Shown here: positions 12,542-57,765 of the stretch, piece after piece
Layout of the letters: the number at the start of each line of letters is the position of its first letter
How positions within the stretch are numbered: the stretch's first letter is position 1
DNA from: Devosia sp.
GTDB lineage: Bacteria; Pseudomonadota; Alphaproteobacteria; Rhizobiales; Devosiaceae
Reading direction: 5' to 3'
Length of the DNA stretch: 64,000 nucleotides
Assembly (NCBI RefSeq): GCF_028290435.1
Contig: NZ_JAQGJV010000009.1
Location: 1 to 64,000, forward strand
Notes under the pieces: model-generated
Seen by the model: the letters and a program-made list of their open reading frames with translations, nothing else
Told to the model about the DNA's origin: nothing
Database searches by the model: none
Program-made: the position numbers and the translations under genes

Positions 12542-12714
12542 GGCTGGCTCTCTTGGCTTGTCGCCACCAATCTACACCGATTTCATGGCTTTCGCCGCTA
12601 TGACACCTTCGGCATATGACCGTGCGATGTCACAATTATCGCCCGGCACTATTTTCATCGCGCCCCGGCCCGCCTATATAGAAGCTGCTCGCAAGAGCTA
12701 TGGCGATAAACTGT

Positions 12715-13010
12715 CATCGTAATAAACCTTTCGGACCCGGGGGCAGTACCCGGCGCCTCCACCATCTTCCCGCTCACGCGGGCAGCCAATGGGGGCGAAA
12801 CAGGATCGACGAGGGCGTAAAGGGTGTGCTTTTGCTCGGTGAGGTACCACCGTTATCGGTCCAAAACTTATAGTTGCAAATGACAACCATAAGGCTCCAG
12901 TCGCTCTCGCCGCGTAAGCGGTGCTAGCATTGGGAAATTAAGTCCTCCACCCCTAGCCGGGTGACAGGCGGGGTCCGCAGGCACCTGGCAACAGAAGCCT
13001 GCACCTTCCC
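12715..13010 (+). ncRNA. ssrA: Transfer-messenger RNA, alphaproteobacterial circularly permuted two-piece form
   Basis: Acceptor piece ends GGACCCGGGGGCAGTACCCGGCGCCTCCACCA (12764), short intervening segment, then coding piece beginning GGGGGCGAAACAGGATCGACGAGGGCG (12791); tag ORF GCA AAT GAC AAC CAT AAG GCT CCA GTC GCT CTC GCC GCG TAA at 12876-12917; outer ends approximate. Confidence 0.95.
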
Positions 13011-17761: not shown

Positions 17762-17995
17762 TTGGGTTTCGCCCGGGTTCGTCGCGGTGAGTTTAGGCAA
17801 GTCAGGCTGCCACGCAAGTGCGTGATTGCTTTGTATTATCGGCAAGAATCTGGCCTTCGGCGGCCTCTTCTATCACGCTTGCGTCAAGCGCCACGCTTTA
17901 AGCTCAAAAGCGCCCATATATCGGCCTCGCCATATACATGGGGCGCCCCGCTGCCTATATTGCAAACGAGAACAAAAAGAGATTCGTCAAGCCGC

Positions 17996-21516: not shown

Positions 21517-22386
21517 ATGCCCGTCGATCAGCTCTCCGCCCCGCTCACCAAGGACCAGGCCTATGCGCTGGTCGATGCCGTCATGGAGCGTGACGACCTG
21601 GCGCTGACCGCCTCGGCGCATGAGAATGAAGCGACCGGCGAATGGTTCTTCGAGGCCGCCTGCGACAGCCCGCCGGACATCGAGGCCTTTGTCGAACTTG
21701 CACGCCAAACCCTTGGCGGCGTCGTTGAATTTTCCGTGGCGCCCCTCGACCCGGAAATCAACTGGGTCGCAAAATCACTCGAAGGCCTGCCCCCGGTGAT
21801 CGCCGGCGGCTTTTACGTCTATGGCAGCCACGAAACCGGCCCCATCCCCTCCGGCCTCACCGCCATGCGGATCGACGCCGCCCAGGCCTTCGGCACCGGC
21901 CATCACGAAACGACCACCGGGTGCCTCGAAGCCATCGACCGCCTGCTCAAGCGCAAGAAGCCGCGCGTCATGATCGATGTCGGCACCGGCACCGGCGTGC
22001 TCGCCATCGCGCTAGCCAAACGCCTGCACACGCCCGTCATCGCCAGCGACATCGATCCGATTTCGGTCAAGACCACGGTAGACAATGCCGCCCAGAACGG
22101 CGTCGGCAAATTCATCATCCCTGTGGAAGCCACCGGCCTAAACCACCGCACCATCGCCCAGAATGCGCCCTATGACTTGGTGGTCGCCAACATCCTGGCC
22201 GGCCCGCTGACCGCCCTCGCCCCGGCCATGGGCCGCATCGTCGAGCGCGGCGCCACCATCATTCTCTCGGGCATTCTCGAGCGCCAAGCGCCGGGCGTCA
22301 TCTCCGCCTATGCTTTGCAAGGCATGGTGCTAACGCAAAAGCTGCAGCGCAAGGACTGGACCACCTTGATGCTGGAAAAGCGCTGA
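21517..22386 (+). CDS. prmA: Ribosomal protein L11 methyltransferase
   Basis: AFGTGHHETTTGCLEAIDRL, MIDVGTGTGVLAIALAK, DLVVANILAGPL. Confidence 0.94.
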   Translation: MPVDQLSAPLTKDQAYALVDAVMERDDLALTASAHENEATGEWFFEAACDSPPDIEAFVELARQTLGGVVEFSVAPLDPEINWVAKSLEGLPPVIAGGFYVYGSHETGPIPSGLTAMRIDAAQAFGTGHHETTTGCLEAIDRLLKRKKPRVMIDVGTGTGVLAIALAKRLHTPVIASDIDPISVKTTVDNAAQNGVGKFIIPVEATGLNHRTIAQNAPYDLVVANILAGPLTALAPAMGRIVERGATIILSGILERQAPGVISAYALQGMVLTQKLQRKDWTTLMLEKR

Positions 22387-22412: not shown

Positions 22413-22552
22413 TGTGTGCCGATATTCAGGTCAGGCCGAGTCGAAAGAGGTAGCCGCCGAGAACCGGAGCGGAGCGTACGTTCTGTACGTGAGCACCGGA
22501 AGCGCAGGCGGGTGCCTCTTGCAGACCGGCCTCACCTGAATTGCGGCGCACA
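22413..22552. repeat. Structured intergenic element, copy 1 (conserved core 22459-22507)
   Basis: Long imperfect hairpin: 25-nt outer arms (22413-22437/22528-22552), 13-nt inner arms (22446-22458/22507-22519), apical core shared with copy 2. Confidence 0.85.
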
Positions 22553-22554
22553 AA

Positions 22555-22584
22555 AGCAAAATCCCCGAAGCAAGCTCCGGGGAT
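22555..22584 (-). terminator. Rho-independent terminator for the 43-aa small ORF
   Basis: ATCCCCG-AAGCAAGCTC-CGGGGAT hairpin followed on the minus strand by TTTTGCTTTT. Confidence 0.7.
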
Positions 22585-22616
22585 CATCAGATCGTCAGCA
22601 GTAAACTGCAGCGGCC

Positions 22617-36617: not shown

Positions 36618-36621
36618 GCTA

Positions 36622-36761
36622 GGTCGTGCGGACAGTTGAGTGAGGACGTGGCGAAAATGGTGGTTTTCGAGAACCGGAGCGCAGCGTACGTTTGTACGTG
36701 AGCACCGGAAGCGCAGAAAATTGCCGTTTGCAGCCCGTCATCACCAACTGGCCGTCCGACC
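36622..36761. repeat. Structured intergenic element, copy 2 (conserved core 36669-36716)
   Basis: Same 140-nt architecture as copy 1, arms with unrelated sequence but preserved pairing; fills the gap between convergent genes. Confidence 0.85.
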
Positions 36762-37762
36762 TACAGCCAGCCGCGGCGCTTGAAATAGAGATACGGCAGG
36801 ATGGCCGACAGGACCATCAGCCCCAGGGCGAACGGATAGCCGAAGGTCCACTGCAGTTCGGGCATGATGGCGTAGTTCATGCCATAGATCGAGGCCACCA
36901 GCGTCGGCGGCAAGAACACCACGGCCGCCACCGAGAAGATCTTGATGATCTGGTTCTGCTCCAAATTGATCAGGCCAAGCGTGGCATCGAGCAGGAAATT
37001 GATCTTGCTCGACAGTGTCCGCGCATGTTCGCCCAGCGAGAGCGCATCACGCTGGATCAGCTTGATCAACTGCCGCGTTTCGCGTCCTGCCTTGGTGGTG
37101 GGAGCGTCGGGCGCCGAGTGAAACGCCGCCAGCCGCGAAATGCTGACCAGGCTCTCCTGCACCATCGTCAACAGTTCCGCCTTGGCGCCGATCTGTTCGA
37201 TGATCGAGCGCAAATCTTGCTGCAATTGCTTGGCGCTGGACTTCTTCTTACGGAACACGTCGCGCGAAATATGGTCGATCTCGTAGCCGACCCGCTCCAG
37301 CGCATCGGCCGTCCGATCGATCATGGCTTCCAGCAGCCCCAGGAAGACTTGCTCGCCCGAGCCGCAGATGATGCCCTTGGCCTTTTGCGCCCGCATCAAA
37401 AACGCCAGGAACGGCTTGGGTTCGGCATAGCGCACCGTCACCAGGGTCATGCCCTTGAGGATAAAGGTGACCGGGGTCTTGGAAGGCTCCTCGGTGTCCA
37501 GCTTGAACAGTGCCGTCATGGTCATGAACTCGGCGCCGTCTTCATTATAAAGCCGGGCCGATAGCTCGATCTCCTCCATTTCGGCCTGCGTCGGGATGAC
37601 GATCCCCAGCAGCGACTCGACGAGATTGTCTTCCTCGGACGTCGGATCGAGCAGGTCGAGCCAGACCAATCCGTCGGTCGAGCTTCCCTCGGATACCGGA
37701 ACTTGGATGAGTTTATTGGTTTGATGTTGATATGCGCGCAGCATGGCGAGGCTCCTGGGCAA
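36761..37762 (-). CDS. corA: CorA-family magnesium/metal transporter
   Basis: YGMNYAIMPELQWTFGYPFALGLM (GMN motif) and C-terminal two TMs. Confidence 0.95.
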   Translation of the reverse strand: MPRSLAMLRAYQHQTNKLIQVPVSEGSSTDGLVWLDLLDPTSEEDNLVESLLGIVIPTQAEMEEIELSARLYNEDGAEFMTMTALFKLDTEEPSKTPVTFILKGMTLVTVRYAEPKPFLAFLMRAQKAKGIICGSGEQVFLGLLEAMIDRTADALERVGYEIDHISRDVFRKKKSSAKQLQQDLRSIIEQIGAKAELLTMVQESLVSISRLAAFHSAPDAPTTKAGRETRQLIKLIQRDALSLGEHARTLSSKINFLLDATLGLINLEQNQIIKIFSVAAVVFLPPTLVASIYGMNYAIMPELQWTFGYPFALGLMVLSAILPYLYFKRRGWL

Positions 37763-57311: not shown

Positions 57312-57351
57312 CCGCCGCCGCAGGACGGCAACCGCGCCACCGGAAAAATCA

Positions 57352-57765
<414 letters not shown>

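Follow-up and report, generated by a model that had tools for sequence, protein, structure and literature searches.

What is the long hairpin that lies downstream of a prmA-like gene in this Devosia genome, and what has shaped its arms? The window, by which we mean the whole stretch of 64,000 nucleotides that was analysed, holds two such elements. The initial annotation described them as selected secondary structures with a conserved apical core and conserved internal loops, a description that our results support, and offered four possible functions: an ncRNA of the locus, a 3'-UTR stabilizer, a bidirectional terminator or a hairpin recognized by a protein. The last of these probably holds; the other three are not supported. 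Taking the evidence together, we think it probable that the feature is a non-autonomous, MITE-like mobile hairpin of the type represented by the enterobacterial ERIC repeats.

Structure and setting of the two hairpins

Copy 1 occupies positions 22413–22552 and copy 2 positions 36622–36761 (ends GGTCGTGCGGAC and GTCCGACC), both on the forward strand; the sequence and coordinates reported at first reading were confirmed, as was the length of 140 nt for both. Copy 1 folds as a single rod of -90.7 kcal/mol, compared with -50.9 ± 3.7 kcal/mol in 200 dinucleotide shuffles (z -10.9), and copy 2, together with its flanks, adopts the same rod fold (z -7.2). An alphaproteobacterial covariance model of the element (R1) matched these two copies and nothing else in the window (97.9 bits, E 5.4e-27, and 95.9 bits, E 2e-26, respectively). 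In the fold of copy 1, the outer left arm (22413–22437) pairs with the outer right arm (22528–22552), and the inner left arm (22446–22458), which is immediately preceded on its 5' side by GAGTC, a GANTC site, pairs with the inner right arm. Of 238 copies, 100 have a GANTC in this region, low in the left arm and internal to it; a control stretch gave 11.

The invariant core of copy 1 (22458–22507), which reads CGAGAACCGGAGCGSAGCGTAC-loop-GTACGTGAGCACCGGAAGCGCAG, and that of copy 2 (36668–36716, read from the sequence) are one substitution and one deletion apart, as initially reported. Its general form is CGAGAACCGG A GC GSA GCGTAC-loop-GTACGT GA GC A CCGG AAGCGCAG or, in shorthand by its two halves, CGAGAACCGG..CCGGAAGCGCAG. 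From the tip downwards, the fold consists of a 6-bp stem closed by a G.U pair, a GSA/GA internal loop, a short stem with an A/A mismatch and an asymmetric loop (GAGAA/AAGCGCA), beneath which the arms begin. The apical stem-loop of copy 1 lies at 22474–22490 (GCGTAC-GTTCT-GTACGT) and, with the internal loop beneath it, forms a module common to ERIC.

Genes were called with a home-made hexamer finder. The putative prmA-like gene, so named in the initial annotation (21517–22386, forward strand, recognized by its ORF and coding score), lies upstream of copy 1 and reads into it. A convergent small ORF has an intrinsic terminator of its own (22560–22585, reverse strand), separate from the element; this was the sole call of the intrinsic terminator search (22585–22560), which found none at copy 1. 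With no U-tract after copy 1, and with a gene's own terminator surviving beside the insertion at another locus (L281 compared with L287), the terminator reading was rejected. The window also holds an ordinary class A RNase P RNA (57351–57742) and an ordinary alphaproteobacterial permuted tmRNA (12648–13005).

An exact Rfam match, which the initial annotation had allowed for and which would have made the element a known one, was not found, and at neither gathering nor permissive thresholds did Rfam give any match to the hairpin. The phage collection likewise gave none, and a sequence-string search of the open-access literature was negative, an earlier description in a subscription journal being possible.

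A dispersed family and its insertion sites

Searching the source genome with the covariance model, as had been proposed at the outset, gave 49 matches, two of which are copies 1 and 2; eleven carry the exact core, and these are identical save at one C/G position. Devosia congeners carry between 0 and 49 copies each. The hairpin is a dispersed repeat family, not a single-locus ncRNA or terminator, and neither this range of copy number within the genus nor the occurrence of empty sites supports the suggestion of a locus-specific ncRNA or 3'-UTR stabilizer. A scan of GTDB genomes for the exact core found at least 119 stretches; the matches listed were predominantly from Mesorhizobium, the others including Phyllobacterium, Devosia, Agrobacterium, Brucella (including Brucella tritici), Stappia, Bosea, Sphingosinicella and Sphingopyxis (Sphingomonadales), Asticcacaulis and Acidocella, and they included one MAG labelled Nitrospirae and one labelled Deltaproteobacteria. 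When genomes of one class were drawn evenly, the element was present in 17 of 289.

Two variations on the unit were observed. A Bosea MAG (L106, 7223–7690) contains a head-to-tail array of 3.3 copies with a period of 142 (140 + 2), as if produced by end-to-end insertion or by copying as a multimer. Some copies in Devosia (L196, L159, L204, L205, L224) and Mesorhizobium (L071, L072, L074) carry a module of about 20–30 nt (ACCGAAGGTCCGCGCNAGCGAA or similar) inserted after GAGTCGA in the left arm, always in the same place; length variants also exist among E. coli ERICs, some of which exceed the rest by about 78 nt.

Locus comparisons between Devosia species reveal the unit of about 140 bp in filled and empty states. 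The window contains one empty TA (17899–17900), at which it reads plain CGCTTTAAGC and which is filled in the sister genome G003 (locus L293). Another site, filled in G006, reads CCG-TA-GGACC...GGTCC-TA-GGCG, the empty counterpart in G010 being TTC-TA-AGCG; one filled/empty pair used TGA in place of TA. Copy 2 is flanked by TA on the left (36620–36621, read from the sequence) and on the right (36762–36763), where the TA lies within the antisense stop CTA (36761–36763) of a convergent gene, while copy 1 is without an intact TA pair and has the ends TTTGTG and CACAAAA. TA as a direct repeat at complementary ends was found in 31 of 112 Devosia copies, compared with 5.1 expected from shuffled partners. 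CG, GC and AT flanks were also above the null, because the ends of a palindrome cannot be placed uniquely, and for the same reason the argument for TA leans on the filled and empty pairs as well.

Of 102 Devosia copies, 68 have their right end exactly at the stop of an antisense gene, and the distance from stop to core end shows sharp peaks at 32–37 or 41–48 nt; the commonest distances, 44 or 45 nt, account for 41 of the 68. The left end lies at a sense stop in 17 copies, and stop-codon YTAR sites are found among the insertion sites. Since the element starts with G after the TA, insertion into TAG or TAA preserves the stop, which explains why such insertions are tolerated but not why right and left should differ. 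At the outer termini the only inverted repeat that is conserved is roughly TAGGNCC, and the sequences there differ from one subfamily to another. A GGCAC box is over-represented immediately beyond the left end of Devosia copies (22 of 116, compared with 3 in control stretches), about 50–56 nt before the core; it was not counted as part of the element, the enrichment being absent in other genera.

Covarying arms, the folded strand and the fate of resident copies

The apical core is nearly invariant across orders, and the arms drift with compensatory changes. Across 92 distinct copies, 96.7% of cells were paired and double-sided changes occurred at 16 of the 25 modelled pairs, in an alignment whose fitting to the structure biases the level of pairing upwards; sliding the partner by 1–3 columns reduced pairing to 32–43%. 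Cells changed on both sides numbered 235 in these copies and 54 in shuffles, so that the covariation originally proposed from two copies is borne out. Nor are the arms identical between loci, as the initial annotation would have expected of a simple repeat expansion: they are common within subfamilies and differ from locus to locus.

Mismatches in the arms were 747 G.T against 176 A.C with an aligner that scores both alike (337 against 138 in the outer arms alone), and this excess indicates that one strand, the core strand, has been selected to fold. In 214 of 226 copies the core strand is indeed the more stable of the two. To judge from the sequences, the bias would need a folded single core strand, either RNA or ssDNA. 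The arms of E. coli ERICs showed no G.T/A.C asymmetry (33:35), which counts against placing the two together.

Covarying arms and a G.T preference on one strand are also what would be seen in a locally selected RNA element, that is, a 3'-UTR or convergent-gene stabilizer, processing site or terminator whose stem is kept at each locus. Such a role would be in keeping with the orientation-dependent effect of Yersinia ERICs on mRNA stability (PMC2229807), and with retention of copies at orthologous sites: five species retain a copy beside the same flanking gene (L201/L302, L223/L323, L237/L330, L171, L172), and in four Devosia species (L156, L177, L179, L234) the element directly adjoins the 3' end of tRNA-Val(cac), these last copies apparently having been inherited vertically. 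However, of 57 tandem gene pairs, 43 have the stable core strand antisense to both genes and 14 have it sense; the copies are patchy with sites that stand empty, no U-tract was seen, and separate terminators are present. Furthermore, many single arm changes break pairs at orthologues of low divergence. In 23 orthologous filled pairs, which are not independent of one another, 68 single-sided arm changes kept pairing and 74 broke it; several close pairs mainly lose pairing (L002/L183, 5 broken and 1 kept; L292/L295, 9 broken and 5 kept) and a few retain it (L155/L281, L003/L188). The arm changes at orthologous sites accord better with selection at the time of propagation than with strict maintenance of every locus, and we regard an RNA element selected locally as unlikely. 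The persistence of some copies at orthologous loci in several species is nevertheless a counterpoint to mobility, and could reflect function.

In the source genome and in G003, the flanks of the prmA site itself are 93–95% identical, but 42 of 98 arm positions differ; 14 pairs are compensated, and the core has one difference. The copies downstream of prmA in these sister species (22413–22552 in the window, and L293) belong to different subfamilies, and the copy of the other subfamily would appear to sit there by re-insertion or replacement.

Neighbouring copies on one contig were co-oriented in 19 of 20 cases in G000 and in 19 of 20 in G003; co-orientation over long range was observed on C46, C75 and C20 of G000 and on C27, C40 and C18 of G003. 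In these two genomes, the orientation of the element opposes the polarity of KOPS (GGGNAGGG) by about 45 to 6. No such opposition was seen in G006 (4:6) or G010 (6:5), where one chromosome strand nevertheless carries most of the copies (3:17 and 11:2, respectively), and E. coli ERICs showed no KOPS-type orientation bias. A rule based on the replication strand holds strongly in G000 and G003, but was rejected as the mechanism on account of its failure in G006, G010 and E. coli ERICs.

Mobilization and relation to known repeats

The search for a mobilizing enzyme covered Y1, IS630, IS5/IS427-type DDE and RVT_1 domains. The Y1/RAYT domain (PF01797) was absent from all 25 Devosia genomes, control genomes being positive, and the DDE_3 domain of IS630 (PF13358), the IS5/IS427-type domain DDE_Tnp_1_2 (PF13586) and the reverse transcriptase domain RVT_1 (PF00078) were absent from the copy-rich genomes G000, G003, G006 and G010, which removes all four types as resident candidates in those genomes; G016 has 29 matches to PF13586, yet one element. 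A classical IS-derived MITE, or a REP with its RAYT, that a resident IS630, IS5/IS427 or Y1 transposase mobilizes in trans would account for the palindromic form and, in the IS630 or IS427 type, for the TA duplication and the stop-codon YTAR sites, but these absences make it highly improbable, as does the conservation of the apex and not of the termini, the reverse of what is seen in a MITE recognized at its ends. REP/REPIN sequences, like the Devosia element, are dispersed extragenic hairpins for which single-strand movement has been proposed; however, they are 20-nt palindromes, and neither their size nor their core fits a 140-nt rod with its core at the apex in genomes without Y1.

It seems similarly improbable that the family is one of the repeats already described in Alphaproteobacteria (CIR, Bru-RS1/2, RIME, ABC or Sm) under another name, although several likenesses invite the comparison. 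The CcrM-associated intergenic repeats (CIR) of Caulobacter and Brucella are more than 100 bp long (about 110 bp), with a conserved GANTC and TA ends (PMC2229807); the left arm of the Devosia element often has a GANTC, Bru-RS1 and Bru-RS2 are palindromic repeats of 103–106 bp (PMC10800456), and Brucella tritici carries the element. CIR, however, is described as two stem-loop arms that a linker connects, a terminal loop carrying the GANTC, whereas the Devosia element is one 140-nt rod in which GANTC lies inside the stem, in under half of the copies; the two are thus set apart by description, not by sequence. The Bru-RS, RIME and ABC repeats of Rhizobiales, again compared by description, resemble it in being palindromic and intergenic in related hosts, but at about 100–110 bp they differ from it in size.

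We therefore return to the mobile hairpin, for which the drifting, subfamily-specific termini are themselves a counterpoint, being unusual for a MITE recognized by a transposase, as is the negative outcome of the four domain searches. A conserved apex with drifting termini suggests recognition at the hairpin tip and not at terminal repeats. The comparisons show that an almost fully palindromic unit of about 140 bp inserts as a block at TA, with TA on both sides, and that this very often happens at the TA of a stop codon, the stop being preserved. We hypothesize that propagation needs the core strand in single-stranded form, RNA or ssDNA, folded as a rod, and that the apical GA-loop hairpin is bound by a protein not encoded in the element. 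On this view, arm covariation would be the trace of selection to re-fold every time the element is copied, not of function at the resident locus; after insertion most copies would drift, and some would be kept for long periods at orthologous sites.

ERIC repeats (also IRU or RU-1), the closest known system, have been known since 1990–91 and are used in strain typing; we know of no mobilizing enzyme that has been identified for them. ERIC primer sequences matched the ERIC loci. The ERIC apex, CCCCAG-GA-GCTTAC-ATAA-GTAAGT-GA-CTGGGG, has the architecture of the Devosia apex. A covariance model built from six enterobacterial ERIC copies (R2) gave three matches in 116 kb and seven in 352 kb, all of them on elements and in register (Devosia, Asticcacaulis, Agrobacterium, Acidocella, Mesorhizobium and Roseiarcaceae); the best was in Asticcacaulis (E 2.2e-6), and within about 470 kb none lay off an element. 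Conversely, when R1 was run with filters off against six ERIC loci, its top hit at every locus fell on the ERIC core and on the correct strand (E 1.5e-5 to 0.18, the E-values of both models being rough owing to rough calibration); default filters gave no ERIC match. R1 also gave weaker matches (36–44 bits) in non-alphaproteobacterial Pseudomonadota, and those that were read out proved to be mostly long palindromes with the same apex (e.g. TTA-GGGCC...GGCCC-TAG); the matches share the core by construction, but their long, often near-perfect arms are not demanded by the model.

It is tempting to speculate, and we do so tentatively, that a single Pseudomonadota-wide superfamily of mobile hairpins, ERIC included, combines a short apical GA-loop hairpin with freely drifting, covarying arms, relies on a host factor other than the known transposases to copy it as one folded strand, and takes its orientation under the influence of replication direction during bursts. 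A second, independently diverged family narrows the target of the ERIC factor to a G.U-closed stem over a GA internal loop, and the Devosia family shows which strand folds. For annotators, the message is that strongly covarying hairpins of this sort are dispersed mobile elements and not sRNAs.

The Devosia family is an alphaproteobacterial variant of the ERIC kind of hairpin. ERICs are single stem-loops of 127 bp with TA termini (PMC2229807, PMC2267715), and the two families share a long stem-loop with a conserved central core (127 compared with 140 bp), the TA termini, an intergenic location, patchy copy number and the apical 6-bp G.U-closed stem over a GA internal loop. In ERIC too the core strand is the more stable in most copies and some right ends lie at antisense stop codons, and the covariance models match reciprocally. 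Unlike ERIC, the Devosia family has longer, better paired arms, a strong bias of G.T over A.C, an invariant CCGG..CCGG segment and a much stronger bias towards stop codons and in orientation relative to genes. The 127-bp ERIC consensus has no sequence similarity to it outside the apical module, so that structure-aware models alone connect the two, and the host ranges differ, the Devosia family being mainly alphaproteobacterial and ERIC belonging to Enterobacteriaceae and Vibrionaceae (Gammaproteobacteria). Homology leans on a short structural module and modest E-values, and convergence is possible; common descent is somewhat more likely, and it is likely that the two form a common class. Their common tip structure suggests that ERIC belongs to a class of hairpins found across the proteobacteria.
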